Positions 100-26,855 of a stretch of 64,000 nt of DNA are shown here, piece by piece (the first letter of the stretch is position 1; every line of letters begins with the position of its first letter). Made by a program: the position numbers and the translations under genes. The DNA is taken from positions 261,982,077-262,046,076 of the forward strand of contig CP136061.1 of the NCBI GenBank assembly GCA_032622095.1, given 5' to 3'. This stretch comes from Siphonodentalium dalli (taxonomy: Eukaryota; Mollusca; Scaphopoda; Gadilida; Siphonodentaliidae). A model generated the notes under the pieces. That model was not told the DNA's origin. It saw only the letters and a program-made list of their open reading frames with translations, and ran no database searches.

Positions 100-491
100 C
101 CCTTTACCCAATAGAACGGCCCTGTGCCAATGCATTCTCTTATATATGCGAGTCGACCATAGGTCGCCTCGCATATATAAGAGAATGCATTGGCTTAACA
201 CATTAAAAATTATAAAATTGTTAAAGAATGTAAGAAAAAATGGTAAAAAGTGTTAAAAAAAGATTTTTTTTAGGCCAATGCATTCTCTTATATATGCGAG
301 GCGACCTATGGTCGACTCGCATATATAAGAGAATGCATTGGCACAGGGTATAACTGTAACCATCACAATGTGGTCAATGAGCCGGTTCCAATGATACCCA
401 TATTTGTATGGTTCTATTGAGACAGACCGAAGATATTTTAGGCTGTTGAAGCTTTATTTGGCCGGTTTTGGCCGGTTTGTTGGGTAAAGGG
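100..491 (+). mobile_element. MITE family A, copy 1 (piggyBac-like, TTAA)
   Basis: This is a non-autonomous element with terminal inverted repeats CCCTTTACCCAA(C/T)A at the left and TGTTGGGTAAAGGG at the right. It is flanked by ATAA (96-99, a mutated TTAA) and TTAA (492-495). TTAA targets and CCC-starting ends are typical of piggyBac-type elements. Inside are two 69-bp hairpin cassettes in inverted orientation, at 126-194 and 274-342. Each has 27-bp perfect arms (GCCAATGCATTCTC...), one mismatch, a 5-bp inner stem and a 3-nt loop. An AT-rich spacer of about 80 bp separates them. Right of the cassettes is an asymmetric tail of about 140 bp containing AATGTGGTCAA and GAGACAGACC. No coding capacity is seen, so movement would need a transposase supplied in trans. 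Confidence 0.9.
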
Positions 492-608
492 TTAACACAC
501 GAGGTGAAATTATAAATATATAAATGAATATGAAATTGAGTAATTTTTACTAAAAAAAATGCTGAGACATTTCTCGCAACCCCATGAATCTTAAAAACTG
601 GGAGTTAA

Positions 609-722
609 CCCTTTCATGCCAGAGCTGGCTGGCGCAGCATTAAAGACCCTGTGCCAATGCATTCTCTTATATACATGTATGCGAGTCGGCCAAGAATATA
701 TAAGAGAATGAAATGGCCTAAC
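609..722 (+). mobile_element. MITE family G, truncated copy 1
   Basis: It begins after TTAA (605-608) with CCCTTTCATG and the G-specific GCTGG(C/T)GCAGCATTAAAGA. It then runs into the shared cassette arm (CCAATGCATTCTCTTATAT) and stops after a degraded second arm. The right end is missing. Confidence 0.7.
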
Positions 723-762
723 AACTGTAGAATGTATGTCCATTACTACATAGATGCTACCC

Positions 763-908
763 ACATTGTAGGCTAGCATCACCAAACTCACCCTCTGGGT
801 ACCTCATTCTGCTTAGGCTTCATCTTCTGGGAATTATCTAGTCTCAAATTAACATTGGTTTTAGTTACTTTTTAGATTCTGTTCAGTTTCTATATATCCT
901 GAGGTTAA
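763..908. repeat. Family C foldback repeat, partial copy 1
   Basis: It contains GCTAGCATCACCAAACTCAC, CTCTGGGTACCTCATTCTGC and the C-specific middle (CATCTTCTGGGAA, AACATTGGTTTTAGTTAC, TTCTGTTCAGTTTCTATAT). Only one side of the element is present. Confidence 0.7.
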
Positions 909-1262
909 TGTTGACACAGATCAGATCTACAGGTACCATTAACAGAAAAACACAATGATTTTCCTCCTTAAGGCACCATTGTGAATGAAACTTTGTTTTT
1001 ATAACCAATTAAGCCTTTGATTAAGCCATTACTTTATTTAGTTTCTAAGGACACTGGTTTTGCATTATAAGAATTGTCTACATTCTGTCTATTTATTGAA
1101 TTGACAAACGATGCAGCCTACAGGTGAATACTGATAAATGAATAATTCATGAGTGAATGCAACAGATTATGAATATTAATTAGGTGACAAATTACTGGTG
1201 TTTGTATCACATTACGCAGGGATGTGTTAACAGCTGTTGCATAACAAAGAAACAGTTGGCAC
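909..1262. other. Unassigned AT-rich spacer
   Basis: I see no gene, no tandem repeat and no match to the other families here. Confidence 0.4.
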
Positions 1263-1748
1263 AATGTTGCATGGAATGACTGACAGCATAAACACCATCT
1301 GGTTAAGAGCTAACCATCTGGTTGGGGAAATATGAATGGTGGATGTCAAAACTAATGTTAAATATTTCTTTGAAGCAGAGGGGATATTAAGGACAGGGGG
1401 TTATCGAAAGGGGTGGGGGTGGCAGAATGTTGCATGGAATAACTGACAGTATAAACAAAATCTGGTTAAGAGCTAACCATCTGGGTTGGGGAAATATGAA
1501 TGGTGGATGTCAAAACTAATGTTAAATATTTCTTTGAAGCAGAGGGGATATTAAGGACAGGGGGTTATCGAAAGGCGTGGGGTTATAGAAAGGGGTGGGG
1601 GTGGCAGAATGTTGCATGGAATAACTGACAGTATAAACAAAATCTGGTTAAGAGCTAACCATCTGGGTTGGGAAATATGAATGGCGGCTGTCAAAACTAA
1701 TGTTAAATATTTCTTTGAAGCCGAGGGGATATTAAGGGCAGGGGTATT
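1263..1748. repeat. Three-copy tandem repeat, about 163-182 bp unit
   Basis: Units start at 1263, 1426 and 1608 with AATGTTGCATGGAAT. Each contains the small hairpin GGTTAAGAGCTAACC, then AATATGAATGG and AGGGGATATTAAGG. The second unit is longer because a G-rich piece (TTATCGAAAGG and TTATAGAAAGG) was itself duplicated. Units 1 and 2 are nearly identical, which suggests recent amplification. A related TGTTGCATGGATTAACT follows near 1777. Confidence 0.9.
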
Positions 1749-2050
1749 TGGAGTGGGGAGGGATGTTGTTTTATGTGTTGCATGGATTAACTATTAAATA
1801 GCATAACACCAAGGGAGGCTTACTCGAAATGTTATCTTTGTCAAAATTAAATGTTACGATATTCAGTGAACAACCTTGAGATAGGAATTGTTTGGGACAG
1901 TGCTGTTGAATATGTTCTTGTTCTGAATTTTTTATTTCTGTACCTACTGACGATTACCATATATATGAGCATCATTATTACTCAATCTTAATGAAAAATC
2001 CACACCAGTCTCATACTATCACCACTACCAATGCCCCCTCTTCTCTTCTA
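1749..2050. other. Unassigned spacer
   Basis: Nothing is recognised apart from a stray TGTTGCATGGATTAAC that resembles the start of the preceding tandem unit. Confidence 0.4.
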
Positions 2051-2382
2051 CCCCATGGGAGAGTCACATATATAAGAGAATCCCCTGGCACATACTATTT
2101 AATGCTGCACCAGTGCAGCTCTAGCCACTGCATTCTCTTATAAATGTGAGGCTCCATATGGGAGACTCACGTAAGGCTCCATATGGGAGACTCACATATA
2201 TAAGAGAATGCACTGGCACATGATCATTAATGCTGCACCAGTGCAGCTCTAGTCATGGAACTTGTAAGCCACTGCATTCTCTTATACATGCAAGGCTCCA
2301 TATGGGAGACTCACGTATATAAGAGAATGCACTGGCACATGATATTTAATGCTGCACCAGCACAGTTCCCATCATGAGAGGG
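2051..2382 (-). mobile_element. MITE family G, rearranged copy 2
   Basis: Three reiterations of a G-type cassette (arms CACTGCATTCTCTTATA / TATAAGAGAATGCACTGGC, loop CTCCATATGGGAG) are separated by TTAATGCTGCACCAG. The right end reads CATGAGAGGG followed by TTAA (2383-2386). The internal repetition suggests slippage or gene conversion between hairpins. Confidence 0.75.
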
Positions 2383-2667
2383 TTAATGGATAAAACCCAT
2401 AAAGACACAAATTGGATACAGCATTAGGACTCCCATCTTCATGGCATTATTTTTGTTTTTCCACATGGATCGTTACTTGTAGTTTCACCGATGACGGAGC
2501 TGCCCCATATGGCACTGATGATGTGCAGTACATGTCATCACTGAGTGTAATATGCACGTGATGAGAGACGTAATTATGTAATATGCACTGATGTTTATTA
2601 TCACTCATGTTAACAATTACCCAAGAACGGCTGAAAACGGTGGCATCAACAAAATCAATGATACCAA

Positions 2668-3045
2668 GCCTGAGTTTAGTGTGTCTGACATTTGCAGAAT
2701 GAGGTCCCCAGAGGGTGAATTTATTGATGTTATCCCGCATAGCGGGCTAGCATCTCCAAATTCACCCTCTGTGGACCTCATTCTGCATGGCCTCATCTAC
2801 ATGTAGAGAAACTAAACTAAAAAAGAAATTTCTACAATAAAATTTGATAATAAAGAAACTTTCCAGATGAGGCCTAAGCAGAATGAGGTCCCCAGAGGGA
2901 TAGCGTCACTAAATTCTCCCTCTGGGGACCTCATTCTGCTTACACCTCAGTAGAATGAGGTCTCCAGTGGGATAGCGTCACTAAATTCTCCCTCTGGGGA
3001 CCTCATTCTGCAAACGACAGGCACACTAAATTCAGACTTGAATGA
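2668..3045. repeat. Family C foldback repeat, copy 2
   Basis: It opens with AAGCCTGAGTTTAGTGTGTC and CAGAATGAGGTCCCCAGAGG and closes with CTCATTCTGCAAACGACAGG and AATTCAGACTTG. The CAGAATGAGGTC...GACCTCATTCTGC palindrome occurs three times (about 2696-2795, 2879-2942 and 2951-3013). This shows that the arms themselves are modular hairpins. Confidence 0.85.
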
Positions 3046-3365
3046 TACATAGTTTCCTCAATGTTAATTTTTTTTTTAAATGGAGGAAATGGAACCTGCG
3101 AACTGCTGATAATGACATTTAATGTGTTGACTTTTACTGGCATTTACATACTCTATATTATCAAGCACCACTAAAGCGCCAGTGTCACTAATTAAATGGT
3201 TACAATATTCTACCCAGGAGGAAGTGCATTGTGCTTTACCCGTCTTGTGTCATACTTCAGACGTACATGATAACTGAAGAGTGTCATTTTATAAATATAG
3301 CCAATTACAGTTAGCTGTTCCTGTTCAAATTAAAGCTAGGTAATTCCAACAAAGGGTCATACATG
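3046..3365. other. Unassigned spacer
   Basis: No gene or recognised repeat is seen. Confidence 0.4.
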
Positions 3366-3552
3366 TAACTGTGGTGAAAATTGGCAGGTGGAACCCAAAT
3401 TCGAACATGATCTGTATATTGTGATAGTAAACCCACATACCCAAATTTCATTCCATTCAATTGAGACTACCTAAAGTTATCATCTGGAAACCAAAAGCAG
3501 ACAGACAGACGTATGGATGGATGCACAGACAGACCGATAGCATAATACATCC
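3366..3552 (+). repeat. Dispersed repeat family L, copy 1
   Basis: It shares with 57310-57478 the blocks GGTGAAAATTGG, CCCAAATT, ATTTCATTCCATTCA, GAGACTA and AAAGTTATCATC. The CAGACAGACAGAC tract at the end resembles the 3' tail found on many invertebrate dispersed repeats. The superfamily is unknown. Confidence 0.65.
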
Positions 3553-3992
3553 TGTTTTAAATAATTTAGAAAACAATTATTTCCCTGTGACGGAAGCTGA
3601 TTGGTCGCTCTGAAAATATCATTTTATACCCCCGATACTACACACATAGTTCCGTGAAGAAATACACCATTTCCAAAGGGTTAATATCTATACATATTTA
3701 GACTGGCTATATTTCTGCTCAATTTGCGGATGAAAACAGAAAATCGTGGGTCATATTTACATTGGTTCACACCTCCCCTCTCACTTTACACGGCTTATCT
3801 CGGAGTATAGGAGAGTTGGGTTTCAATCACCAGGACTATAGGTGCGGCCATCAATGTTATCAGATTGTGGGACCCTTCATTGAAGTGTTAGCAATCAGGC
3901 TAAAACATCTCTATATGCTCAAATCTACAATGGTTAGATTCCCTATCTACATTACCTCAAATTTGTGGTTTATGGCTATAATCTACTAGTCA
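3553..3992. other. Unassigned spacer
   Basis: No convincing gene. A 75-codon frame at 3762-3989 has no recognisable domain. Confidence 0.4.
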
Positions 3993-6222
3993 ACAATACA
4001 TGAAAGCTGAGGAGTAATATAGCTCATAGGGATTCATAAGCAGTGAAATATTAACCCAATGGTCGGCATCTCATAGGCATAAACCCTACATACATGTATA
4101 CATATAGTTCATAGGGATTCATAAGCAGTGAAATATTAACCCAATGGTCGGCATCTCAGAGGCATAAACCCTACATATAGTTCATAGGGATTCATTAGCA
4201 GTGAAATATTAACCCAATGGTCGGCATCTCAGAGGCATAAACCCTACATGTAGCTCATAGGGATTCATTAGCAGTGAAATATTAACCCAATGGTCGGCAT
4301 CTCAGAGGCATAAACCCTACATATAGTTCATAGGGATTCATAAGCAGTGAAATATTAACCCAATGGTCGGCATCTCAGAGGCATAAACCCTACATATAGT
4401 TCATAGGGATTCATTAGCAGTGAAATATTAACCCAATGGTCGGCATCTCAGAGGCATAAACCCTACATATAGTTCATAGGGATTCATGAGCAGTGAAATA
4501 TTAACCCAATGGTCGGCATCTCAGAGGCATAAACCCTACATATAGTTCATAGGGATTCATTAGCAGTGAAATATTAACCCAATGGTCGGCATCTCAGGCA
4601 TAAACCCTACATATAGTTCATAGGGATTCATAAGCAGTGAAATATTAACCCAATGGTCGGCATCTCAGAGGCATAAACCCTACATATACATATAGTTCAT
4701 AGGGATTCATGAGCAGTGAAATATTAACCCAATGGTCGGCATCTCATAGGCATAAACCCTACATATACATGTAGCTCATAGGGATTCATTAGCAGTGAAA
4801 TATTAACCCAATGGTCGGCATCTCATAGGCATAAACCCTACATATACATATAGTTCATAGGGATTCATGAGCAGTGAAATATTAACCCAATGGTCGGCAT
4901 CTCAGAGGCATAAACCCTACATATAGTTCATAGGGATTCATTAGCAGTGAAATATTAACCCAATGGTCCGCATCTCAGAGGCATAAACCCTACATATAGT
5001 TCATAGGGATTCATGAGCAGTGAAATATTAACCCAATGGTCGGCATCTCAGAGGCATAAACCCTACATATAGTTCATAGGGATTCATGAGCAGTGAAATA
5101 TTAACCCAATGGTCGGCATCTCAGAAGCATAAACCCTACATATACATATAGTTCATAGGGATTCATAAGCAGTGAAATATTAACCCAATGGTCCGCATCT
5201 CAGAGGCATAAACCCTACATATACATATAGTTCATAGGGATTCATAAGCAGTGAAATATTAACCCAATGGTCCGCATCTCAGAGGCATAAACCCTACATA
5301 TAGTTCATAGGGATTCATAAGCAGTGAAATATTAACCCAATGGTCCGCATCTCAGAGGCATAAACCCTACATATAGTTCATAGGGATTCATAAGCAGTGA
5401 AATATTAACCCAATGGTCCGCATCTCAGAGGCATAAACCCTACATATAGTTCATAGGGATTCATAAGCAGTGAAATATTAACCCAATGGTCCGCATCTCA
5501 GAGGCATAAACCCTACATATAGTTCATAGGGATTCATTAGCAGTGAAATATTAACCCAATGGTCCGCATCTCAGAGGCATAAACCCTACATGTACATATA
5601 GCTCATAGGGATTCATAAGCAGTGAAATATTAACCCAATGGTCGGCATCTCAGAAGCATAAACCCTACATATACATATAGTTCATAGGGATTCATAAGCA
5701 GTGAAATATTAACCCAATGGTCGGCATCTCAGAGGCATAAACCCTACATGTAGCTCATAGGGATTCATAAGCAGTGAAATATTAACCCAATGGTCGGCAT
5801 CTCAGAGGCATAAACCCTACATATAGTTCATAGGGATTCATAAGCAGTGAAATATTAACCCAATGGTCGGCATCTCAGAGGCATAAACCCTACATATAGT
5901 TCATAGGGATTCATTAGCCTGAAATATTAACCCAATGGTCGGCATCTCAGAGGCATAAACCCTACATATAGTTCATAGGGATTCATAAGCAGTGAAATAT
6001 TAACCCAATGGTCGGCATCTCAGAGGCATAAACCCTACATATAGTTCATAGGGATTCATTAGCCTGAAATATTAACCCAATGGTCGGCATCTCAGAGGCA
6101 TAAACCCTACATATAGTTCATAGGGATTTATTAAGCAGTGAAATTTTAACTCAATACATGAAAGCTGAGGAGTAATATAGCTCATAGGGCTTTATTAAGC
6201 AGTGAAATTTTAACCCAATCAG
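3993..6222. repeat. Satellite array, 73-bp unit, about 28 copies
   Basis: The unit reads AGTTCATAGGGATTCATAAG, CAGTGAAATATTAACCCAAT, GGTCGGCATCTCAGAGGCAT, AAACCCTACATAT. Some units are longer because the ATACAT junction is repeated, and two (near 5910 and 6060) carry a small deletion (TTAGCCTGAAAT). A GGTCCGCATC variant occupies six consecutive units between about 5190 and 5570 and one isolated unit near 4968. Both edges carry the same non-satellite leader ACATGAAAGCTGAGGAGTAA (near 3999 and 6156), so the array expanded inside a directly repeated flank. Confidence 0.95.
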
Positions 6223-6352
6223 GGCTTATATTTCGACATATAGATTCTCGTAAATTACCCCGTTTCTCGTGAAAAAGTATGCATGGATTCTCGCAAAATC
6301 AGATGAAATACCGTATATGCCCTGACAATGGTCGTGGTCTCAGAGGCATTAA

Positions 6353-6734
6353 CCCTTTACCCAACAGAAGGGCCCTGTGCCAATGCATTCTCTTATATAT
6401 GCGAGTCGACCATAGGTCGCCTCGCATATATAAGAGAATGCATTGGCTTAACACATTAAAAATTATAAAATTGTTAAAGAATGTAAGAAAAAATGGTAAA
6501 AAAAGATTTTTTTTAGGCCAATGCATTCTCTTATATATGCGAGGCGACCTATGGTCGACTCGCATATATAAGAGAATGCATTGGCACAGGGCATAACTGT
6601 AACCATCACAATGTGGTCAATGAGCCGGTTCCAATGATATCCATATTTGTATGGTTTTATTGAGACAGACCCAAGATAATTTAGGCTGTTGCAGCTTTAT
6701 TTGGGCGTTTTTGGCCGGTTTGTTGGGTAAAGGG
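6353..6734 (+). mobile_element. MITE family A, copy 2
   Basis: It is flanked by intact TTAA on both sides (6349-6352 and 6735-6738). Both cassettes are intact and the spacer is slightly shorter than in copy 1. The right TTAA is also the left TTAA of the G element that follows. Confidence 0.92.
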
Positions 6735-6738
6735 TTAA

Positions 6739-6965
6739 CCCTAGCTTTCATGACGGTAGCTGCGCTGGTGCAGTATTAAAGATCCTGTGACAGTACATTC
6801 TCTTATATATATGAGTCTCCCATAGGGATTCTAAGTGATTATATAAGAGAGTATACTGACATATACTGGGAATATACTCTCCCTATGGGATACTCGCATA
6901 TATATAAGAGAATGCATTGGCACAGGGTTTTCGCAAAATTTCAGGAAGCTCCAGTCATGGAAGGG
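6739..6965 (+). mobile_element. MITE family G, copy 3
   Basis: It starts directly at the TTAA shared with the preceding A element and ends AGCTCCAGTCATGGAAGGG, followed by TTA(C). The left end reads CCCTAGCTTTCATGACGGTA, a small insertion relative to the family's CCCTTTCATGA. The cassette loop is of the CTCCCATAGGGA type. Internal arms are diverged. Confidence 0.85.
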
Positions 6966-6968
6966 TTA

Positions 6969-7206
6969 CAGTAATGCCCTAAATAATCAACTCCTTAACC
7001 ACAGCATAATTACAATGTATGGGTAATTTTTTAGGATTTAGTCAGAAATATGGCTTGTTGCCATTCATCGGAAAGCTCTCACTGAGAGCTTTCCGATGAA
7101 TGGCAACAAGCCATACCAGTAGTTCCGACTAAATCCACTGCTAAATCCTGAAAAATTACCCATAATTCTGCTGTGGTTAAGGAGTCGATTATTTAGGGCA
7201 TTACTG
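6969..7206. mobile_element. MITE family B, copy 1 (Tc1/mariner-like, TA)
   Basis: This is an almost perfect palindrome of about 220 bp. The left end is TA-CAGTAATGCCCTAAATAAT and the right end is ATTATTTAGGGCATTACTG-TG. The arms contain CCACAGC(A/G)(G/T)AATTA, TTTTCAGGATTTAGTC and ATGGCTTGTTGCCATTCATC, and meet at AGCTCTCACTGAGAGCT. A TA dinucleotide target and CAGT-starting ends fit the Tc1/mariner superfamily. There is no transposase. The whole transcript could fold into one long hairpin, so it is a plausible small-RNA precursor. Confidence 0.88.
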
Positions 7207-8262
7207 TGCAATAATTTTGAAGTTTTAAAGTGAATTATAGCATATGAATCAAGGAAATTAGAAAAGGCACAAGCCAAGATGGTCCAACATGCAGCTCAGA
7301 AGTGTACATGTACTAGTATCTTGTAAGACCATGGTAGAATCATAAATTAAACTCACCAAGAGAAATATCATGATCTCCTTTAATCGAAGACCTAGTAAAT
7401 TCCAGAAATCAAGAATTATAAAATCAAAACAACGTAGAGAAACACCCAAACAATGGGAACAGATGCACTCTGAACAACTCTGAGAGTAAATGAGGACACA
7501 GCCCAGTATTATACGAGTATATATATAAAGTGGGAGGCGGCTTTCTTAAAAGTATGGCTAATGATTATTACAAGCGAAACTGCCTCCAGTGCGTTCTTTG
7601 ATAATAGAAGGGGTCATTTGGTGGAGCAAAATAGTTTGTAGATATCAATAAAGGATACGACCTACTACTAATGTATTGTCTGTATGGAAGTACTACTAAA
7701 GTAGCCATTACCCCCGTACCTCACCTATACAAAACAATGGGACGCTGCCCCAGGGTCCGGTCATTATGAGTCTCACACTGTTGGACACAATGAAATAAGA
7801 TGTTACAATGGGCCGAGGCATAATGGTCAAGCTATTATAATTAGAAGGCCCAAAAGGTATTATAATTAGAAGGCCCAAACGGTATTATTTCTATCAATTA
7901 AATCAACCTAAAGATTTTCTTTTTTTTGGTTTTGTGTTTGTTGTATTATTCCCCAGTGGACAGCTGTGTATTTTTAACAAGAATTACTGGTAATGAATAT
8001 CGCTGATTCTTTGCCTAATTAATTTAATTAAAAGGAAATTCCGGGAGTATTTAACAACTTACTTCTAAAGATATTAATTAGTTATTGGGGCATTTTCTTA
8101 TTACATAATTTTGTGATTGATACTTTAAGTTAAACAAACATGGCTTGTTCCAAAGCCTACAATTATGTAACATACAAATACATACATACATACATACATA
8201 CATACTAATACATACTAATACATACATACATACATACATGTACATACTAATACATGCTAATG
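7207..8262. other. Spacer with small repeats and a CATA microsatellite
   Basis: No gene is supported. A roughly 26-bp duplication (TATTATAATTAGAAGGCCCA) lies at about 7834-7890. A (CATA)n and CATACTAATA microsatellite runs from about 8170 to 8260 and continues beyond the next element (near 8843-8860). The E element therefore inserted into this microsatellite. Confidence 0.6.
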
Positions 8263-8834
8263 TGACCCGCCATATCAAATCCAGTCGTAAGTCGGGATTT
8301 TTTTACCCTGTGCCAATGCATTTTCTTATATACATGTATGAGAGTCGACCATAGGTCGCCTCGCATATATAAGAGAATGCAATTGGTCTAACAATTTTTT
8401 ACAATTTTAATATTTTTTTCTTGTATTCTTTAACAATTTTATAATTTCACCCATACAGAGCCCCAGACAAACATGAGCAGACGACACCCTTCTATAGGCT
8501 TCTATATATTGGCCTAACAATTTTTTAAATAAATGTTTCTTACAATTTTTAGGACATAAAATAAAAAACATCCATTACCCTGCAGGGAGCCCCACACATA
8601 TATAGAAGCATATAGAAGAGTGTTGTCTGCTCATGTTTGCATGGGCTCTGTATGGGTGAAATTGTTAAAGAATACAAGAAAAAATTATTAAAATTGTAAA
8701 ACATTGTTAGGCCAATGCATTCTCTTACCGGTATATATGCGAGGCGGCCTATGGTCGACTCGCATATATAAGAGAATGCATTGGCACAGGGTAAAAAAAT
8801 CCCGACATACGACTGGATTTGATATGGCGGGTCA
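8263..8834. mobile_element. MITE family E, copy 1 (572-bp near-palindrome)
   Basis: The ends are TGACCCGCCATATCAAATCC and GGATTTGATATGGCGGGTCA, a perfect match as inverted repeats. Moving inwards on both sides come AGTCG(T)A, the shared CCCTGTGCCAATGC hairpin cassettes, an AT-rich stretch, then CCCATACAGAGCCC and GAGCAGACGACAC arms. Almost every base pairs with its counterpart around a centre near 8548. A clear target duplication is not visible because the flanks are microsatellite. The superfamily is undetermined. It carries the same internal module as families A, G and H. Confidence 0.88.
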
Positions 8835-9490
8835 ACAAATGTACTAATACATACATACATTGGATATTTTCTGTTTGATGTTCTATTGATGTTCATAACC
8901 AAGTCACTCGACTTCTTTTTGACAGAACTATAATTTTGTGTTATTTTATTTAATTTTTCAATTTTTATAGTGGGTGGGGAAAAAAAATTCAGCAATTTGG
9001 AATTTTTTTCTTTCAATTTTCGAAAAATTTGGTACGCCGGATTTGTAAACCAAAAATATAAATTCTCTCGCCTGATGATGGGTGCACAGCATTTCACAAA
9101 GCAAGGTTCAAACTCACCTTTATTTGGCGATGCTCTCCCGGATATTGATGGTTCAAGATTTAATTCAATTTTTGATGGAACATAGAAAATATCCAGAAAT
9201 TTTGTATTCACAAATGGTCACTTGACATTCCTCTTCGAAACTCGAAACAATGTGGCTTATGTAATTGAGCTCATGAGCCAAACTCGTTAAACCATTTATT
9301 TGGAATTGCAAACATGTAGACAGGTGAATTGTCATATTTTACTTGGCAAAGAGAATATGCTTGAGACATACCCAGCAAATAAGATTGTTTGTTTAAACTT
9401 TCTTGCAGGTTTAAAAGGCTAATCAGAATAAATAGCTTTAGTAGCCAAGTGATAAAGTTCATCTTTAAAGTACTCAGTACATGTACTGAA
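8835..9490. other. Unassigned AT-rich region
   Basis: A long antisense frame crosses this region and the E element, but its codons come from palindromic repeat and AT-rich DNA. No domain is recognised and I do not call a gene. Confidence 0.4.
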
Positions 9491-9492
9491 AC

Positions 9493-9834: not shown

Positions 9835-9838
9835 TTAA

Positions 9839-10232
9839 CCCTTTACCCAACAAACCGGCCAAAACCGGCCAAATAAAGCTTCAACAGCCTAAAATATCTT
9901 CGGTCTGTCTCAATAGAACCATACAAATATGGATATCATTGGAACCGGCTCCTTGACCACATTGTGATAGTTACAGTTATGCCCTGTGCCAATGCATTCT
10001 CTTATATATGCGAGTCGACCATAGGTCACCTCGCATATATAAGAGAATGCATTGGCCTAAAAAAATAATCTTTTTTTAACACTTTTTACCATTTTTTCTT
10101 ACATTCTTTAACAATTTTATAATTTTTAATGTGTTAAGCCAATGCATTCTCTTATATATGCGAGGCGACCTATGGTCGACTCGCATATATAAGAGAATGC
10201 ATTGGCACAGGGCCGTTCTGTTGGGTAAAGGG
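9839..10232 (-). mobile_element. MITE family A, copy 3
   Basis: This is the reverse orientation, with the asymmetric tail on the left. TTAA flanks it at 9835-9838 and 10233-10236. Both cassettes are intact. Confidence 0.92.
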
Positions 10233-10236
10233 TTAA

Positions 10237-12942: not shown

Positions 12943-13545
12943 TCGAAATAGTGGGTCTGACATTTGCAGAATGATGTCCCCCAGTGACGTCTGCTCATGT
13001 TTGTCTGGGGCTCTGTATGGGTGAAATTATAAAATTATTAAAGAATACAAGAACAAATTATTAAAATTGTTAGGCCAATGCATTCTCTTATATATGCGAG
13101 GCGACCTATGGTCGACTCGCATATATAAGAGAATGCATTGGCACAGGGTAAAAAAAATCACATTAATTATTGAAAATAAGCGTGGCTAGCGTCAACAAAT
13201 TCACCCTCTGGGTACCTCATTCTGCTTAGCAGCTGCGGCCTCAATGGCTGTGGGAGACCTTAGTAACCGGTACATGCAGAATCAGATTGAAGTTCCCAAA
13301 GTGAAGTTATTCACCTAAATTATGCGTTTTATCATCTGCAAATTATACCGGTATAATATAGTAATATGGAAACTTCCTAGAAGGGAAAATGTAACTAAAA
13401 ACAATGTTAATTTGAAACTATAGCTACTTCCCAGAAGATGAGGTCAAAGCAGAATGAGGTCCTCAGAGGGTGAATTTGGCGATGCTTTCCCCACCATGTG
13501 GGAACCTCATTCTGCAAATGTCAGACACTATTTCAAGCCTTGTGA
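12943..13545. repeat. Family C foldback repeat, copy 4, interrupted
   Basis: The outer ends are AAGCCTCGAAATAGTGGGTC and GTCAGACACTATTTCAAGCC. Near its left end it is interrupted by an E-family fragment (12988-13159), after which C sequence resumes at GCTAGCGTCAACAAATTCAC. The internal middle is in the opposite orientation to copy 3. Confidence 0.82.
12988..13159. mobile_element. MITE family E, partial copy 2 nested in C
   Basis: It contains GTCTGCTCATGTTTG, GGGCTCTGTATGGGTGAAAT, the AT-rich spacer, one intact 69-bp cassette and CACAGGGTAAAAAAAATC. It corresponds to part of the right half of the E element at 8263-8834. The outer TGACCCGCC end is missing. Confidence 0.8.
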
Positions 13546-13720: not shown

Positions 13721-13866
13721 TAACAGCGTTTATGATTTCCACCAACTAAAAAGCTTGCCATTTTCTCTCTAAGTTCTGCTCTTTCCTCATCACCCATGGT
13801 TGCTTCCGGCCTGCCTGTCTGTACATCAAGAATAAACCAATGGTTGCCTGGGTGGAATTACTTTAA
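13721..13866. repeat. Duplicated segment X, copy 1
   Basis: ACAGCGTTTATGATTTCCAC through GGTTGCCTGGGTGGAATTAC to TTTAA is repeated almost identically at about 14390-14536. In copy 1 the final TTAA is filled by an A element. In copy 2 the same site is empty (TTTAATGCAT). Confidence 0.92.
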
Positions 13867-14259
13867 CCCTTTACCCAACAGAAGGGCCCTGTGCCAATGC
13901 ATTCTCTTATATATGCGAGTCGACCATAGGTCGCCTCGCATATATAAGAGAATGCATTGGCTTAACACATTAAAAATGATAAAATTGTTAAAGAATGTAA
14001 GAAAAAATGGTAAAAAAGTGTTAAAAAAAGATTTGTTTTAGGCCAATGCATTCTCTTATATATGCGAGGCGACCTATGGTCGACTCGCATATATAAGAGA
14101 ATGCATTGGCACAGGGCATAACTGTAACTATCACAATGTGGTCAAGGAGCCGGTTCCAATGATATCCATATTTGTATGGTTCTATTGAGACAGACCGAAG
14201 ATATTTTAGGCTGTTGAAGCTTTATTTGGCCGGTTTTGGCCGGTTTGTTGGGTAAAGGG
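13867..14259 (+). mobile_element. MITE family A, copy 4, at a duplication junction
   Basis: TTAA occurs on both sides (13863-13866 and 14260-14263). The left flank belongs to segment X and the right flank begins inside a B element (TTAACCACAGCAGAATTATG). The two TTAA sites therefore come from different ancestral positions. Confidence 0.92.
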
Positions 14260-14389
14260 TTAACCACAGCAGAATTATGGGTAACTTTTCAGGATTTAGT
14301 CGGAAATATGGCTTGTTGCCATTCATCGGAAAGCTAAGTTACCAATAATTCTGCTGTGGTTAAGGAGTCGATTACTTAGGGCATTACTG
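14260..14389. mobile_element. MITE family B, copy 3, left end missing
   Basis: It starts exactly at the right TTAA of the A element, at the internal TTAACCACAGCAG position of B, and runs to GGGCATTACTG. The first 27 or so bases of B are absent. Confidence 0.88.
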
Positions 14390-15437: not shown

Positions 15438-15794
15438 CCCTTTACCCAACAGAACGGTCTTGTGCCAATGCATTCTCTTATATATGCGAGTCGACCATAG
15501 GTCGCCTCGCATATATAAGAGAATGCATTGGCTTAACACATATTAAAGAAAAAATGGTAAAAAGTGTTAAAAAAAAGTTTTTTTTAGGCCAATGCATTCT
15601 CTTATATATGCGAGGCGACCTATGGTCGACTCGCATATATAAGAGAATGCATTGGCACAGGGCATAACTGTAACTATCACAATGTGCTCAATGAGTCGGT
15701 TCCAATGATACCCATATTTCCATGGTTTTATTGGGACAGACCGAAGATAATTTAGGCTGTTAGGGCGTTTCTGGGCGTTCTGTTGGGTAAAGGG
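15438..15794 (+). mobile_element. MITE family A, copy 5 (shortened spacer)
   Basis: The right flank is TTAA (15795-15798) and the left flank is CTAG (15434-15437), a mutated target. Both cassettes are intact. The spacer lost about 30 bp and the tail is diverged (TTAGGGCGTTTCTGGGCG). Confidence 0.88.
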
Positions 15795-15798
15795 TTAA

Positions 15799-17460: not shown

Positions 17461-17462
17461 AC

Positions 17463-17952: not shown

Positions 17953-18166
17953 CAGTAATGTCCAAACTAATTGACCACTTTACCACAGCAGAATTATGGG
18001 TAATTTTTCAGGATTTAGTCGGAAATATGGCTTGTTGCCATTCATCGGAAAGCTCTCCCTGAGAGCTTTCCGATGAATGGCAACAAGCCATATTTCCGAC
18101 TAAATCCTGAAAAGTTACCCATAATTCTGCTGTGGTTAAAGGAGTCGATTACTTAGAGCATTACTG
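17953..18166. mobile_element. MITE family B, copy 4
   Basis: Flanked by TA on both sides. The arms are near perfect and meet at GCTCTCCCTGAGAGC. Confidence 0.92.
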
Positions 18167-18189
18167 TACCTCATGGCCATATGAGAATA

Positions 18190-18334
18190 AAATGACTCGC
18201 TTTGTGATGTTCATGTACTTAAATGACCTCACATTTCTAAATTGCTGCACCCAAGTCAGGTCAGTGTTTTCTGTCTAAAGTGAAAACTGAACTGGAAAAA
18301 AGTCCTACACATTCCTATAAACATGAACAATATT
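18190..18334. repeat. Diverged direct repeat, copy 2
   Basis: Partner of 17463-17597. It carries small insertions (TGATGTTCATGTACTTAAAT versus TGATGTACTTAAAT). Confidence 0.8.
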
Positions 18335-20177: not shown

Positions 20178-20346
20178 GGTCGTTTGTTGAATTGAATATT
20201 TCCCCACAAAATGAATAAGAATCATTCTCATCTATTTTCTGTCTGTCATCCTCTTTTATTAGCTGAACATCCCTCTAATAAATAATAGACCGTTCCAATG
20301 TATACAATTATAACTGAATGGGAGAATCCATTTAGTATAGAAAGTG
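20178..20346 (+). mobile_element. TTAA element family F, copy 1 (left end lost)
   Basis: It shares CGTTTGTTGAA, GAACATCCCTC, AATAATA(A/G)ACC and TGGGAGAATCCATTTAGTAT with F3 at 26184-26506. It lacks the H element nested in F3: here ATTATAACTGAATGGGAG is continuous, giving an empty-site paralogue. Confidence 0.75.
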
Positions 20347-21811
20347 TTAGTATGGTCAGTTTCCCTTAATTGTCCTTCCAAAAGTCAATAGTGACCATGT
20401 GATGAAATAAACAAAACATAGAACCTCCCTCCCTGATCCTCAATCAAACATAACATACACATGTAGAACCTCCCTCCCTGAACCTCAATCAAACAAAACA
20501 GAACCTCCCTCCCTGATCCTCAATCAATCGGCAATCTCTAGACCCGATTAGTGGATGCATGTACCATGGCTGTCAATTCAATGATTTCCCAAGTCAGGTT
20601 CACGGATTATCAATTCAACTGCTGCCGTCTTTGATGACACTGTCTCCATTGTCACTGTTCTATAGAATATTGTAGTGTCTACGATGCTACGCTGCATGTG
20701 ACTTCCATTAATGTATCCTCCTCCAAGATATGCCAGCTCAGCAGACTCGGCTAATTGGTCAGTCAGTCCATAATTACTGTCGCATTCCAGACTAATGAAC
20801 TATGGGTAATTGTTTAAAGGTCACCGGAGTTAGGAATGGGGGAGAGGACACGTGCCTCTATTTAGGAATGCTGTGTGGGCAGTGTTTACCTTTATTCTTT
20901 GCACTAAGATGTAAAATGACGGTTGACACCAAGATATCCTGGTAAGGCCAAAGGAAAATCTATTTTTGGTGGGGTTTCCCTGCCTACCCTAATTTAAACC
21001 CCGTACACTAAACATTTTTCCTATGATACAGTGTGGTACAATTAATATCTCTGGAAAATTTCATTACATTATATAACCCAATAGGCAATAAATAATAAAC
21101 TGGGGAAAAAACACATTCCAATGTCCTAAAATCTGTTGATTTCTTAGTCAACATATTTGGCTTGAACAAAAAGCAATGATAACTTTTCTCAGTTCAATGA
21201 TAACTTTTCTCAGTTCAATGATAACTTTTCTCAGTTCAATGTGACCATTAAATTTCAAGGCAGAATAGAAGCCATAAAAATATCTCAATAAAAATTTATT
21301 AAAAAAAAAAAAAGTTTAAGCCAACATACAGACCCCTAACTTTTCGGACATGTAACCCCTACCACACATTTAATTTGTTTGGCCTAATACCTGTCAAACT
21401 CAGGTGGCTGGATGGATAAAGAATAGAGTTGGGGCCTTGACCGGACCTGGGCTATGAATTACATACAAACTATCTATCTACAGGTTTCTCCTAACCTTCA
21501 TTATGTTGAAGTTTGAAAAGAGGCGCATGAATCATGTAACTATACAATTTTGATGTGCAATATTTTTACTGTATTTTGGATTTTATTTAAAAACATAATA
21601 AAAACTTAGGTACAGGTTTGATTATGAGAGTTTCAAGCGGTCGCTATAGAGCAGTTTGAAGTTGCCCAGGTCTGTGAGGGTACATGTAGCAATAGCAGGG
21701 TCAAGAGAATTCCATGCAAGAATAGTACATGTACGTGTTTAGAATGAGGTGCGGATGTATTTGGTCCAGTGAAAAAAACAGTACTAATTTATGACCTCTG
21801 GATGTTGTGGG

Positions 21812-21846
<35 letters not shown>

Positions 21847-23248
21847 TCTCATATATTAACGATGTTTTTGATTTTGTAAAGAACATGACAAGTGATGAAT
21901 ATATTTATATCATATCATATCACACATTTATATAAATAATCGTGGCTGTTCTAGAGAAGGCCATTGCAGGTGTTTTAGCATGTCAGTAGGTGTTATTGAG
22001 ATGCAGTGTCCGATTTTTGGGCTATCTCAATGTCCCTCTCATACGGTACATGTATCTAATGGCATTCCGTTTTCAATGCATAGGTCATACTGGCTGGAAA
22101 CTTTCTCAGCAATTTTCGTCCGTCATACAAGCTATGATCCAGAGGACAATACTTCTATTTGAGTAATGGTACCCCATCTCCTAGCAATGATGTTATGTAT
22201 GTTCAACAGATATATACAGAAGATTATAAGGAATATTGACTGCCAGTAAAACTCAAGATGAAATCATGGCTATTGAACCAATGGTTCTTGAAAGACGAGG
22301 CGTGGAAATACATTGAAAGCAGCGAGTCAAAGCAGTCAAAATATTTACACGTTATGTAAATTCAAATCCCACATGTGCCAGAAAATACACAGTTGTGTAA
22401 ACTCTATCATAAAGCGTTACACCCTCAGTTGTTTCTAAACTCACCAACCAGGTGGATACAAGAATGATAAATAATCCGCAATTTCTTATCAGAGAAATGG
22501 AAATAAAATCCCACAAGTAACTTATCCACGGACAGGACTCACCAGAAATCTAAGCAGCAAAAAGTCTAACAAACCAAGAGAAAACCATGTGTAAACACCA
22601 CACAATACTGAGTGATTGGGAAGTGAATGCACAGAGCAATATTGAGCTGGAGTTTACACACACAGGAACCCAATAACTGGAGACAATGAATAGAACGATT
22701 GTATTGGCTGTTATGAGAATGATTGACAGCTAAGCTCCACCCATTATCCCCAGGTGACTGCATCTGTGGCACATGTCCAATAAATGCACCATCATTCACA
22801 CTGCACAAGTTGTGGGAGGGATTTTTATATTGGGCTGATCTGTGAATATTCACAAGCTTGATAAAGAGTGTTTATGCATGTTTAGATGATATATTGGGCT
22901 GGTATTGATTTTTGTTGAGAGTGTTTGCAGCCATCTGGACATGAGTATTCTATAGTTTACACTCCTTAGAACATCAGTGTGAATATTAACTGTTATATCT
23001 GTGTGTACTTTTGTATAAGGTGATTGTGGGGATTCCTATATCTTAGAGTGCTCTGATCGATACCATATAGTCACGGTACACAGCTGATCATTGGTGACAT
23101 GTGAAGCTAGGGCAATGTGAATTAAGATGCGGTCTCCCTTCCTCCACAGATAATAATAACTCCATTCCAGACGCCTCTCACACTGGTCCATGACCAAAAA
23201 GGATTTTTATTTGAAATGTTTTTCTACACACTAATACTGTTATTACAG
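20347..23248. other. Sparse region with short tandem repeats and a G29 run
   Basis: Three copies of AGAACCTCCCTCCCTGA lie at 20420-20520. Three copies of the 21-mer AATGATAACTTTTCTCAGTT(C) lie at about 21176-21240. A G29 homopolymer lies at 21813-21841. No gene is supported. Confidence 0.6.
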
Positions 23249-23434
23249 ATTGCTATTTATTCCACACCAATTGACATGAGGCATATTGTATTCAACGGAA
23301 TCCCAGCCATTGAATACATATTAGTAAATACCTCTAGCGGAATACAAGCCAGAACTATTATTGTTGACGTTGTCGCCAAGAAAGATGATGTGCATTACAA
23401 CAATGATCCACTTCGGGTGATGCCCCGAAAATGA
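23249..23434 (+). CDS. Candidate terminal exon, unknown host gene
   Basis: CTGTTATTACAG ends at 23248 and would make a plausible splice acceptor. It is followed by an open frame of 61 codons from ATT GCT ATT, entering in phase 0, to a TGA at 23432. The codon mix (many different codons, balanced third positions) is more gene-like than the surroundings. The peptide contains the stretches VFNGIPAIEYILVN and IIVDVVAKKDD, which I do not recognise. No upstream exon or donor could be paired with it. It may be chance. Confidence 0.22.
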   Translation: MAIYSTPIDMRHIVFNGIPAIEYILVNTSSGIQARTIIVDVVAKKDDVHYNNDPLRVMPRK

Positions 23435-23936
23435 CGGTTATTCAACAGAGTTAAAACAATAAATTTAGCCATAGTATCAATGAAGGTGACAGTACTGGAT
23501 TTAATTTATCTCACACAAAGGTGTAGAATAAATACAGAACATAACTTGCATCATAATCTCGAATCTTTTATCAAACTTGTTGAGGACAGTACATAGTTAT
23601 ATTTTGCTAGAGCAACACATGTATGCTCTAGTGTAATTGTAATATATCCTTGCATCGTCCACAACGAGTTCGATAAAAGATTTCTCAATTAAGATGTGCA
23701 TTATATTATGTCTATTTTTTCAGAGCTTTACACATGTTTGGTTTTGTGTTTATTACACACCCGATCGACATCTGATGATTTCTGAAGAATTATTCCATGG
23801 TATTTCCTGTTATGTGATATTTTATTCTAAATTGCTGGTTTCATTGTCAAGGAGAATGTCATTTACTGGTACATGTATGTCAACGGAAAAGTGTTGTTTC
23901 CTTGGCCTGGATTCATTATAATTAATTTGATTTCAG
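23435..23936. other. Spacer between two candidate exons
   Basis: AT-rich. A 75-codon frame at 23694-23921 after TTTTTTCAG shows no recognisable domain. Confidence 0.35.
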
Positions 23937-24064
23937 TACTCAGATCATTAGTTTATACCTTTAGATATTTCGTCCAAGAGAGTAACGTGACAATTATCGA
24001 TCAGATTGATGAAAAAGATGGCATGGGCTCAGACGAAGAAACGTGGTGTTTTTCAGTTCTATGA
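23937..24064 (+). CDS. Candidate terminal exon, unknown host gene
   Basis: TTTGATTTCAG ends at 23936, a good acceptor context. The frame uses one base from a preceding exon and runs 42 codons to the TGA at 24062. It contains an acidic stretch (IDQIDEKDGMGSDEE) and ends CFSVL. Its phase does not match the exon candidate at 23249-23434, so at most they are alternative last exons. No homologue is recognised. Confidence 0.2.
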
Positions 24065-24156
24065 AAAAATATTAGTTGAACTAGTTCAATAGCTGATTAT
24101 ATTACGATTCTTGAAATTTGATGTGCGACTTAGGTGGACCTAAACCTGGCTATATA

Positions 24157-24260
24157 CAGTAATGCTCTAAGTAATCGACCCCTTAACCACAGAGGAATTA
24201 TGGGTAACTTTTCAGGATTTAGTCGGAAATATGGCTTGTTGCCATTCATTGGAAACTACA
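24157..24260. mobile_element. MITE family B, half copy 5a
   Basis: Left arm only (CAGTAATGCTCTAAGTAATC to TTGCCATTCATTGGAAAC). It is followed after about 8 bp by a complete B in the same orientation, so the left arm was tandemly duplicated. Confidence 0.85.
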
Positions 24261-24268
24261 TGTATATA

Positions 24269-24481
24269 CAGTAATGCTCTAAGTAATCGACCCCTTAACC
24301 ACAGAGGAATTATGGGTAACTTTTCAGGATTTAGTCGGAAATATGGCTTGTTGCCATTCATCAGAAAGCTCTCCCCGAGAGATTTCCGATGAATGGCAAC
24401 AAGCCATATTTCTGACTAAATCCTGAAAAGTTACCCATAATTCTGCTGTGGTTAAGGGGTCGATTACTTAGGGCATTATTG
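24269..24481. mobile_element. MITE family B, copy 5b
   Basis: Complete palindrome, TA on both sides, centre GCTCTCCCCGAGAG. Confidence 0.9.
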
Positions 24482-24999
24482 TATCAACAAAAATCCTACA
24501 AACTTCATGATACATAAAGAATTTCTTGGAATGAGTGATGAAAAAATTTACATCAGATAACCAGACACATATTAACATTACGGGTGGCACTCATGGTCCT
24601 GTTGGATCAGTTCCACACCTTAACGTATGGGAAAATTATCACTAATGTGCATTGTCAAGACTTGTTTGATGTCTCAGATGTATAACAAAGATAATTTGCA
24701 TATCCTGCCAACTTTAGCATATACATATTCCCCGTCTGGGTGATCGTAGGTATTGTAAGAATCACTGTTTTTTTGCCTCTGCTAGAATGATTCATCATCA
24801 CTTCTCCCTAGTAACAAGGATAAAGACGGAGCTGACTTCTCCCTAGTAACAAGGATAAAGACGGAGCTGACAAGACAATTCCTCACCACTCACTCCATGA
24901 ATTAAGATTTCTTTCTAAGATTCCTCGGATTCCTCCATAAGATATATTCAGTCAGGTTAGATAACAGTTCTGGGGACTCATACGTAAATGTTCAAGGTA
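24482..24999. other. Spacer with a 35-bp tandem duplication
   Basis: CTTCTCCCTAGTAACAAGGA followed by TAAAGACGGAGCTGA occurs twice at about 24800-24870. Otherwise nothing is recognised. Confidence 0.6.
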
Positions 25000-25212
25000 C
25001 AGTAATGCCCTAAGTAATCGACTCCTTAACCACAGCAGAATTATGGGTAACTTTTCAGGATTTAGTCGGAAATATGGCTTGTTGCCATTCATTGGAAAGC
25101 TCTCAGTGAGAGCTTTCCGATGAATTTCAACAAGCCATATTTCCGACTAAATCCTGAAAAGTTACCCATAATTCTGCTGTGGTTAAGGAGTCGATTACTT
25201 AGAGCATTACTG
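25000..25212. mobile_element. MITE family B, copy 6
   Basis: Complete palindrome flanked by TA. One arm has GAATTTCAACAAGCC where the other keeps GGCTTGTTGCCATTC. Confidence 0.9.
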
Positions 25213-25345
25213 TACCAGTCTATCTCAAACACAGTGGATTATAATGAAATCTTGGTCTGCGCTTGAACTGTCAAGGTACTAGTCTCATTTTAGACCCTGT
25301 AGGCATCTTAAGTACTCTTCACACATACATGTATATATATATATA

Positions 25346-25890
25346 CAGCTATGCTCTAATTAATCGACCCTCCTTAATGACGCAGACCACAGATATTACT
25401 GCATTACTCGACCGCATCGATGCGTTTTACCGTGATCAGTCCTACCGTGGCCGACCTTGGTACCACCTTGCGTTCGCATTTTCATACAATGTTTATATGA
25501 ATTTTTTGTTGTTTTTTAGTTAGAATTATAATCACCACAGAGAGTGTATATTTCTGTCATCGTGCGACTGTGCATTGATGATGCAAATGTCGGTCAGTGA
25601 CCAAGTTCAAATGTTGAATAAACTGTAAACAAATTATTAATTGAAATATTGTTTTGTGTATAGTTAATGCAGTACATGGCGCTCACGAAAAACTGGACTG
25701 GGTGAAGCAGGTCTTGTTAAAAATTAATGTGGAGTACGGCGGTCGCACAAAATTATCACAAGTACCACAGTAACATTTAATACCTGCAGATGCTGAATGT
25801 CAACCTGTTGACCGTGGTTGAATAACGGTACAACCGCTGTCATTAACACCCGACAACCCTGTTAAAGGGGGTTGATTAATTAGAGCATAG
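25346..25890. mobile_element. Long relative of family B with a different interior
   Basis: The left end TA-CAGCTATGCTCTAATTAATC and right end GGTTGATTAATTAGAGCATAG form inverted repeats of about 29 bp, related to the B end CAGTAATGCTCTAATTAATC. The interior of about 480 bp is not palindromic and is richer in GC and CpG than its surroundings. Part of it is open in the + frame ending at 25523, with a GRPWYHLAFAF-like stretch. It may be closer to an autonomous parent or may have captured host DNA. No DDE motif is recognised. Confidence 0.65.
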
Positions 25891-25894
25891 ATTT

Positions 25895-26100
25895 ATACTA
25901 GACCCAGGTATAACAGTTGGAAAGACCCGACTTAAATAAAGAGAATAGTTGGGCGCGAAGCGTCCGGGATGGTAGAAAAGATCGAGTGATCTTTTCCTTC
26001 GCCCCACGAAGACCCGACTTGGTAAGAATACAACATTTATATATCCAATCAGATGATCCGGTTTCAACAATAACAATAGGTTAGTCAAGAAAAGGAATAC
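25895..26100. other. Short spacer with a hairpin
   Basis: GAAAAGATCGAGTGATCTTTTC forms a short perfect hairpin near 25976-25997, within a locally GC-richer sequence (GGGCGCGAAGCGTCCGGG). Its function is unknown. Confidence 0.5.
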
Positions 26101-26183
26101 TCATGTGGAAACCAATAGGATTTTATCAAAGTGTTGACACATATTTTATTGTTTCATCCCGTGAGGTCTCAATACAAATTTAA

Positions 26184-26506
26184 CCCTTTCTATAGGTCAT
26201 TTGTTGAACTTATTATCTACATTTCCCTCCATAAATAGGGCTCCTTCTGCACTTTTATTTATCTGTCGTCTGCTTTTATCACCTTAACATCCCTCCAAAT
26301 GAATAATAAACCATTTCGATGTAAACTGTTTTAACCCTTTCATTGCCATGTCTGATTTTATCTATAAGAGCTCTTTCCATCAATGTATCACATTATTATA
26401 ATCAATAAATTTGAAAAATGATCAAGGAAATATGGGTTGATACAAAAATCGGACTTGGCACTGAAAGGGTTAACTGACTGGGAGAATCCATTTAGTATAG
26501 AAAGGG
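26184..26506 (+). mobile_element. TTAA element family F, copy 3
   Basis: It is flanked by TTAA at 26180-26183 and 26507-26510. The ends CCCTTTCTATA and TATAGAAAGGG are inverted repeats. The element is split by a nested H element at 26335-26469. Subtracting it gives a body of about 184 bp matching 20178-20346. Confidence 0.85.
26335..26469. mobile_element. TTAA element family H, copy 1, nested in F
   Basis: It is flanked by TTAA at 26331-26334 and 26470-26473. The ends CCCTTTCATTGCCA and TGGCACTGAAAGGG are inverted repeats. It lacks the shared hairpin module. Confidence 0.88.
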
Positions 26507-26617
26507 TTAATATGGATACACATAAAAATGTCAGACCAACTTGCATCCATACTCTATTGAACGCAACAAAATCGACATCCATTACTTATATTTACACTCA
26601 ACTCAGTCAACAATTAA

Positions 26618-26855
26618 CTCTTTGAGTGCCAGGGGCCGATCTCATCGGCCCTAAAACCTACAAAATAAGTCTGTTAAAGAATATAAGAATAAATTATTAA
26701 AATTGTAAAAAATTGTAAAAAAAATAAATAAATTGTTAGGCCAATGCATTCTCTTATATATGCGAGGCGACCTATGGTCGACTCGCATATATAAGAGAAT
26801 GCATTGGCACAGGGTATATGGGTTGATACAAAAATCGGACCTGGCACTGAAAGGG
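26618..26855. mobile_element. TTAA element family H, copy 2, carrying the shared hairpin
   Basis: It is flanked by TTAA at 26614-26617 and 26856-26859. The left end is CTCTTTGAGTGCCAGG and the right end is CCTGGCACTGAAAGGG. The right arm GGGTTGATACAAAAATCGGA matches the 135-bp H element at 26335-26469. Unlike that copy it holds an AT-rich stretch, one intact 69-bp cassette and CACAGGGTA. Confidence 0.88.

Follow-up and report, generated by a model that had tools for sequence, protein, structure and literature searches.

The 64,000-nucleotide stretch of the scaphopod Siphonodentalium dalli genome analyzed here (the "window"; assembly GCA_032622095.1, contig CP136061.1, forward-strand positions 261,982,077 to 262,046,076) is rich in short non-coding elements ending in TTAA and CCCTTT. 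It harbors four families of miniature inverted-repeat transposable elements (MITEs), termed A, E, G and H, and an interior of paired hairpins and spacer (the "module") found behind their different ends. Across the genome, 2.23 Gb in nine contigs, tens of thousands of tiny non-coding transposons combine one hairpin-rich interior with unrelated ends. The observations are shared hairpins, unrelated ends, hybrid copies, one hybrid that has been amplified, and no solo copies in the samples read. The best explanation is probably an interior that families swap when repair synthesis changes template at the shared hairpins, with occasional amplification of the hybrids. The module itself, as far as its sequence tells, would then be a non-coding passenger rather than a transposon of its own.

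Elements of the window

Family A is represented by ten copies (about 390-620 bp), each with two or three inverse-paired palindromes. Its 69-bp palindrome is GCCAATGCATTCTCTTATATATGCGAGTCGACCATAGGTCGCCTCGCATATATAAGAGAATGCATTGGC, with CCCTGT as outer arms and an AT-rich spacer between. The first copy (96-495, plus strand) has CCCTTTACCC ends, its left TTAA being changed to ATAA, and a module at 121-347 composed of a left hairpin arm (CCCTGTGCC...GGCTTAA, 121-198, plus strand) and a right hairpin arm in inverse orientation (270-347, minus strand). Further copies lie on the plus strand at 6349-6738 (module 6374-6590), 13863-14263 (13888-14115), 31768-32168 (31793-32020), 54150-54564 (54174-54423) and 57479-57878 (57504-57730), and on the minus strand at 9835-10236 (9983-10211) and 50067-50463 (50214-50438). 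Two other plus-strand copies are a module at 15461-15661, whose right A end extends to 15798, and an element with three hairpins at 29753-30371.

The family E element at 8262-8835 (plus strand) possesses GTGACCCGCC ends without a matching 4-bp target-site duplication (TSD). Its module (8307-8790, plus strand) comprises two hairpins, an AT-rich spacer and an inverted CCCATACAGAGCCCC segment; the E spacer is much longer than that of A and contains this extra inverted segment (CACCCATACAGAGCCCC...). A truncated E copy at 13070-13147 (minus strand) retains a single hairpin with the E-type continuation GGGTAAAAAAAATC.

G-type elements are found at 63491-63741 (plus strand, diverged hairpins at 63536-63614 and 63635-63698), at 30468-30660 (plus strand), at 605-721 (plus strand, a partial element with one hairpin and a G end), and at 2052-2386, where one or more elements with diverged hairpins and a CTCCATATGGGAG-type core have no assigned strand. 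The earlier note, made from the window sequence alone, had placed the same block in all four families. A nearly identical hairpin is indeed shared by A, E and H, but not by G: the hairpins of the element at 63491-63741 are ~77% identical to that of A and their spacer is different (AAGGTCAAGGTAAATATTG), and the G block is an older relative, not the identical block.

Two H-ended elements complete the set. The one at 26331-26473 (plus strand) is devoid of the module (form H0), as the earlier note had stated. The other, at 26614-26859 (minus strand), had been taken for a copy of the whole block; it carries one hairpin (26736-26813) and half of the spacer (form H1), the second hairpin and the other half being missing, and another H subterminal sequence makes up its left side.

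Two of the A hairpins fold almost perfectly as DNA, with energies of -35.4 and -37.8 kcal/mol and z values of about -16. Folding is weaker for the E hairpin at 8312-8385 (z -6.4) and the G hairpin at 63542-63611 (z -5.3), all z values being relative to dinucleotide shuffles. A search for structured RNA gave no Rfam match at the gathering score in the window.

Copy number and module boundary in the genome

The 20-base arm word CCCTGTGCCAATGCATTCTC has 152,046 exact matches in the genome and its reversed control none, which excludes chance. Exact end words number 91,648 for A, 19,404 for E and 22,269 for H; these counts and that of the arm word are of exact matches only and are thus lower bounds. 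Forty loci, taken from 100 listed places, were chosen solely by the arm word; they lie within the first 5.2 Mb of contig C1, and six of them duplicate other loci of the set, leaving 34 distinct. The remaining locus sets were picked from pattern lists, some for lacking a nearby module word or for being unpaired. In all, 120 of the pieces read, those of the arm-word loci included, are from C1, and 80 further pieces (TTAA-preceded and hybrid loci) come from several contigs.

At 38 of the 40 arm-word loci, a known family end stands directly before CCCTG. These ends are those of A (A5, ..ACCCAACAGAACGG; A3, ..GTTACAGTTATG), E (..GTCGGGATTTTTTTA), H (..CAACCCATATA) and G (G1, ..GCAGCATTAAAGA; G2, ..TTTTGCGAAAA). 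L035 and L051 form the exception, both being copies of a single E-type interior whose ends are truncated. A C or T before CCCTG is rare (1,027 loci in the genome with a 35-base word), and 18 of the 20 such loci read are point changes of known ends. TTAA directly precedes the module at 316 of the 152,046 matches; among 20 of these loci, none has TTAA on both sides, nine show the usual E end in which a T has become A, and one (L005) lacks the second hairpin. The candidate of a module forming its own TTAA MITE was rejected on these counts. No solo module with a TSD was seen in the 40 loci sampled by the arm word, the 20 preceded by TTAA and the 20 with a rare base before CCCTG. At least part of a hairpin is retained in all 17 A loci chosen partly for having no nearby exact arm word, and in all ten E loci (L104-L110, L128-L130). 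With known ends at the sampled loci and no solo copies, each family thus has a fixed junction, located at one common base, and module and ends travel together.

These results bear on the possibility that the module was once a transposon with ends CCCTGTGCC...GGCACAGGG, inserted separately into the forerunners of the four families and later extinct, its hosts having amplified the composites. Such a history is conceivable, yet we would not bet on it. It would account for homology that ends at exactly the same base in all families and for the existence of module-free H elements, and nesting of MITEs is indeed visible in the CCCATACAG segment of E spacers, in L127 and in the H end inside the spacer of L145. 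However, no solo copy with a TSD is present among the 80 loci just mentioned, and no shared duplication is seen by eye at the A, E, G and H inner junctions. Nor does it explain the hybrids described below. A related candidate, a palindromic E element that received the module at its center, was rejected, since a search for short empty E palindromes with exact arms and loops of at most 30 bp gave a single deletion derivative and nothing else. The earlier suggestion of an independent inserting element thus finds no support in the present-day copies read, and exchange between families does; an early insertion into each family is possible and may have preceded the exchange.

Forms with and without the module are both found in the H family. 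H0 elements are module-free palindromes in which TTAACCCTTTCAGTGCCAAGTCCGATTTTTGTATCAACCCATAT is directly followed by TTCCTTGATC..; they make up 11 of 13 H loci in a set partly chosen for lacking the module, and 4 of 20 in another H set. The other 16 of these 20 are H1, in which ..CAACCCATAT is followed by A, CCCTGTGCC and one hairpin, this set including local copies (L132/L138, L133/L139, L136/L142, L137/L143). In L145 (..TTCTTTAA joined to TTAACTCTTTCAGTGCCAGACTT..), a second H end sits at a TTAA inside the module spacer, and the common H1 form (..TTCTTTAACAGACTT..) is what the loss of most of this second end would leave. Together, they indicate that nested insertion and then deletion probably contributed to H1.

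Ends and transposition systems

TTAA is found at A, G and H ends, in most window copies intact and in some with one change. The terminal motifs CCCTTTACCC, CCCTTTCATGA and CCCTTTGAGTGCC of A, G and H, all with CCCTTT ends, agree with the CC[C/T]T motif used to recognize piggyBac-type MITEs (PMC2872659; this and the other published accounts cited are drawn on in part), and by their sequence these ends are of the piggyBac type. Family E differs, with the terminal inverted repeat (TIR) GTGACCCGCC.. and a 4-bp AWWT duplication (ATAT, ATTT, AAAT) outside GTGACCC in 20 of 24 end pairs, or 17 of 21 distinct ones, L038/L049, L042/L045 and L109/L110 each being one insertion copied. E does not use TTAA target sites, and the four families taken together thus depart from an all-TTAA group such as the coral CMITEs discussed below.

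The piggyBac profile PF13843 has at least 128 matches in the genome (649 first-look candidates, 116 scored), many in open frames of 500-700 amino acids (aa) that possibly encode active transposases. Neither the module nor A, G or H ends lie beside the transposase at ten such loci, within about 1.5 kb on each side.

Some E and A elements have gained additional DNA. L106 (C1:4495900-4497800) and L107 (C1:4549470-4551400) are E elements of ~1.4 kb with an insert between the E ends and hairpin remnants; they look like copies of one segment, with the E element at the center of an inverted flank. In the L107 insert, an open reading frame at 618-1151, intronless and 177 aa long, matches Pfam Bcl-2 (PF00452, E 1.7e-13) and looks like a captured host gene. 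L111 (C1:6269550-6272100) is a 2.4-kb A element with ~1.9 kb of other DNA within the module spacer.

Hairpins and ends compared

A5, A3, E and H share a 78-bp hairpin consensus in which a single inner base varies; that of G differs. Hairpin distances and a tree were computed from 161 full-length hairpins of the A5, A3, E and H classes. Mean distances within families are.0144 (A5),.0186 (A3),.0266 (E) and.0206 (H); between families they are.0206 (A5-E),.0175 (A5-H),.0229 (A3-E) and.0238 (E-H), which equals the mean of the within-family values, so that the net divergence is about zero. A single sequence accounts for 84 of the 161 hairpins and is present in all four classes. On the tree, family labels require 39 changes (mean of 42.5 when shuffled), and 62 of 500 shuffles need no more, so that labels are not significantly clustered.

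The ends behave differently. Over the 24 bp adjoining the module, likeness between families does not exceed that of shuffled sequence in any of the 15 comparisons (lowest fraction.234, for A3-H), in line with the different outer ends described in the earlier note. This alignment comprises 218 of 238 ends, 20 classed as "other" being omitted and the piggyBac loci and L151-L210 lying outside the set. Within-family end distances decrease from G (.20-.24) to E (.116), A3 (.063), H (.029) and A5 (.024), partly deleted hairpins inflating these values and exact-word selection lowering all divergence values. Their rank suggests that G is the oldest family and that A5 and H are the youngest. The interior is more conserved between families than the ends, as in CMITEs. 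A cassette tree following the ends, named beforehand as the mark of simple common descent, was not obtained: ends are unlike, hairpins of A, E and H are alike, and labels do not cluster significantly on a tree of limited power.

Descent of all families from one ancestor, with diverging ends and a hairpin that selection preserved, perhaps because a transposase or host factor acts on it, is in this light very improbable. TTAA and CCCTTT are indeed common to A, G and H, and the hairpin is strongly conserved. But module-adjoining ends retain no residual likeness beside near-identical hairpins, hybrids with E interiors within A and H ends speak against it, and the different TIR and target duplication of E largely refute such a descent.

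Hybrid copies

Exact junctions between the ends of one family and the E interior (hairpin, spacer, CACCCATACAGAG) occur 69 times for H, 170 times for A5 and 31 times for A3, seven of the latter in one tandem array on contig C3; reversed controls gave none. Of these, 28 H x E, 20 A5 x E and 12 A3 x E copies were read.

In the H x E copies, the exact H stretch, outward from CCCTG, ranges from 6 to 45 bp. Four of the 28 display H ends on both sides (L160, L169, L170, L207), and four others a full H left end with an E right end (L163, L165, L166, L167); in L166, the H end sits within an E end, and in L165 and L167 the E-type right flank has no repeat on the left side. A further copy, L153, is an E element bounded by E ends and ATAT flanks; 10 bp of H lie beside the hairpin in its left arm. 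Eight are broken copies with repeated flanks, and 11 have no recognized right end in the piece read.

In the eight broken copies, ~30-60 bp beside the left end recur after the broken right end. Such repeats are found in 6 of 756 cross-locus pairs and, among ordinary elements, in 0 of 14 H, 1 of 33 A and 0 of 25 E (1 of 72 together). In L151, L157, L159, L164 and L210, an H end at a TTAA-like site forms the left junction; on the right, the junction lies inside the E core or E end, joined to the flank just upstream of that left site.

A5 x E copies have A ends on both sides in 16 of 20 cases, and 13 of the 20 retain TTAA at both borders. One junction, GGG directly followed by TATTTTAGGCTG, is common to 13 of the 20 (including L186, which misses its right tip), and ten of these 13 have TTAA on both sides. 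No two of their left flanks are related (the highest score of any pair is 12 over 75 bp), so this A5 x E hybrid was mobilized as an A element. Among the 12 A3 x E copies, seven have A right ends of differing lengths, two end in E on the right (L199 and L193, the latter from the tandem array), and three have no right end in the piece read.

The recurrent A/E junction, at unrelated flanks and with TTAA on both sides in most cases, makes it very unlikely that the hybrids are assembly artifacts or chance nested insertions, as does the excess of flank repeats in H x E hybrids over ordinary elements. Points that speak for such an origin are that so abundant a repeat can be misjoined, that L166 and L145 look nested, and that three of the 60 hybrids read have an end match of only 6-7 bp. 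A different possibility is ongoing gene conversion, which would keep the hairpin identical across families and create few new combinations of ends and interiors. The near-zero net divergence between families agrees with it, and L153 resembles a short conversion tract; however, new combinations are present, one of them amplified, and the identity of over half of the hairpins with one master sequence is also expected from simple recent amplification. Conversion of this kind appears rather unlikely, while not as improbable as artifacts.

Proposed mechanism and its weighing

Interfamily exchange by template switching or conversion at palindromes, one of the two origins offered by the earlier note, is thus supported by the hybrid copies. 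For template switching, the trigger would be a break under repair, left by excision or arising where replication is stalled by a palindrome. Through the common hairpin or spacer, synthesis begun in one element could then change over to a copy from a different family and run into the interior or end of the latter. Many products would be dead, with mixed ends, truncation or a repeated flank; a product with two compatible ends would be mobilizable and could found a subfamily. One interior may thereby pass between transposase systems. For the flank-repeated copies, synthesis would leave a gapped H element, switch to an E copy at the hairpin, and rejoin on the sister or homologue. The geometry of L151, L157, L159, L164 and L210 is that expected from such a repair. 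We also put forward, tentatively and with less confidence than the exchange itself, that the hairpin pair acts as an exchange port, its palindromes breaking or stalling replication and offering every family a common homologous entry point. If so, the interior would repeatedly get new ends, outlive the transposases that move it, and cross between TTAA-type and AWWT-type systems.

A group of E interiors (L004, L008, L013, L035, L073) have lost part of the left E end, the cut falling at nearly one position in all, immediately outside ATTTTTTTA beside the hairpin. Some of them show flank repeats by eye (uncounted), which fits broken repair.

Several points weigh against exchange by template switching. 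Hybrids are rare, with 270 exact junctions beside the 152,046 arm words, and the H x E word is loose, so that L158 (7 bp of H), L168 (6 bp of H) and L198 (7 bp of A3) may be no true hybrids. Some hybrids could stem from nested insertion plus deletion (L166, and L145 for H1), and single-copy hybrids could be assembly errors. Flank repeats are found in 1 of 20 A5 x E copies (L183, the flank of which itself looks repetitive) versus 3 of 380 cross pairs, and in none of the 12 A3 x E copies at a stricter threshold of 35. The hairpin is short and its tree has little power; sampling by exact words prefers copies with intact hairpins, so that hairpin divergence is underestimated, and the word-sampled set contains six copies among its 40 loci and is limited to the beginning of C1. 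No autonomous element with the module was found among the 10 of 128 PF13843 matches read. Lastly, all families stop at the same base, at CCCTG, as though a physical end of the module had once lain at this point; this common boundary may still leave room for an ancient insertion event.

Comparison with known systems

The nearest precedent is that of the coral CMITEs, compared here by arrangement. These are MITE families with different TIRs that share a 75-bp internal region more conserved than the ends, the origin of which is left unexplained in the consulted part of the report (Wang et al. 2010, PMC2872659). As in the present families, TTAA, CC[C/T]T piggyBac-type ends and tandem arrays are observed. 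In contrast, family E here has a non-TTAA site and a 4-bp duplication, so that the interior spans transposition systems; this interior consists of two near-perfect hairpins; the hybrids point to a mechanism, which the CMITE authors left open; and the copy number is far higher than the estimate of about 1,600 CMITEs in A. millepora (PMC2872659).

Chimeric copies have been described for the transposon Galileo of Drosophila mojavensis. Some bear TIRs of different subfamilies without matching target duplications, others contain the interior of another subfamily, and one subfamily is possibly of chimeric origin; ectopic recombination or conversion has been proposed as explanation (PMC3573991). The mixed-end copies L165 and L167, without a repeated flank, resemble these chimeras. 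Galileo exchanges, however, take place between subfamilies of one P-superfamily element with long homologous TIRs (PMC3573991), whereas families with unrelated ends would here exchange via a shared interior. In the gap-filling and FoSTeST models for Pack-TIRs, foreign sequence enters a TIR element when the template is switched while DNA is repaired or replicated, and some products then transpose (PMC8277862). The filler would here be the interior of another MITE, and the switch point the shared hairpin or spacer instead of microhomology. By analogy, Galileo chimeras and Pack-TIR models may supply the class of mechanism. MER6, a mariner MITE carrying the V domain of a short interspersed element (SINE), is similar in having a conserved domain inside a DNA transposon of different origin (PMC6887750). 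Its V domain is retroposon-derived, and the part of the report consulted mentions neither hairpin pairs nor end exchange (PMC6887750). An interior common to TTAA and non-TTAA MITE families with hybrid intermediates was not found in the open-access literature searched.

MITE families are usually defined and dated by their ends, under the assumption of a single history for ends and interior. Here, one interior lies behind the ends of two transposition systems, and intermediates are visible, one of which is now a mobile subfamily. Shared interiors of unrelated MITE families, unexplained in the case of CMITEs, thereby become testable by sequence and by a break-repair assay. Furthermore, transposable element classifiers that rely on interiors may merge unrelated families.

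Other repeats and coding sequences

The module is also part of long tandem repeats at C1:0.736-0.92 Mb (units of roughly 11-15 kb), C1:94.237-94.292 Mb (7.9-kb units) and C3:220.54-220.58 Mb (6-8 kb units). Within the window, a tandem array at 59703-62279 is composed of 45- and 66-bp units, many with a terminal AAAGGGTTAA, and is built from a TTAACCCTTTCTATA-type transposon end; another, at 3953-6189, has a period of 73 bp. Two more palindromic repeat families, GGATTTAGTCGGAAATATGGCTTGTTGCCATTCATCGG.. and CAGAATGAGGTCCCCAGAGGGTGAATTTAGTGATGCTA.., show no evident likeness to the hairpin module; copies of these two families lie at 7018-7115, 17995-18092, 24199-25217, 48287-48384 and others, and at 2665-3040 and 32339-33009. 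A 1,024-aa open frame at 39236-42310 harbors a reverse transcriptase domain (PF00078, E 6.8e-26) and belongs to an element resembling non-LTR (long terminal repeat) retrotransposons.

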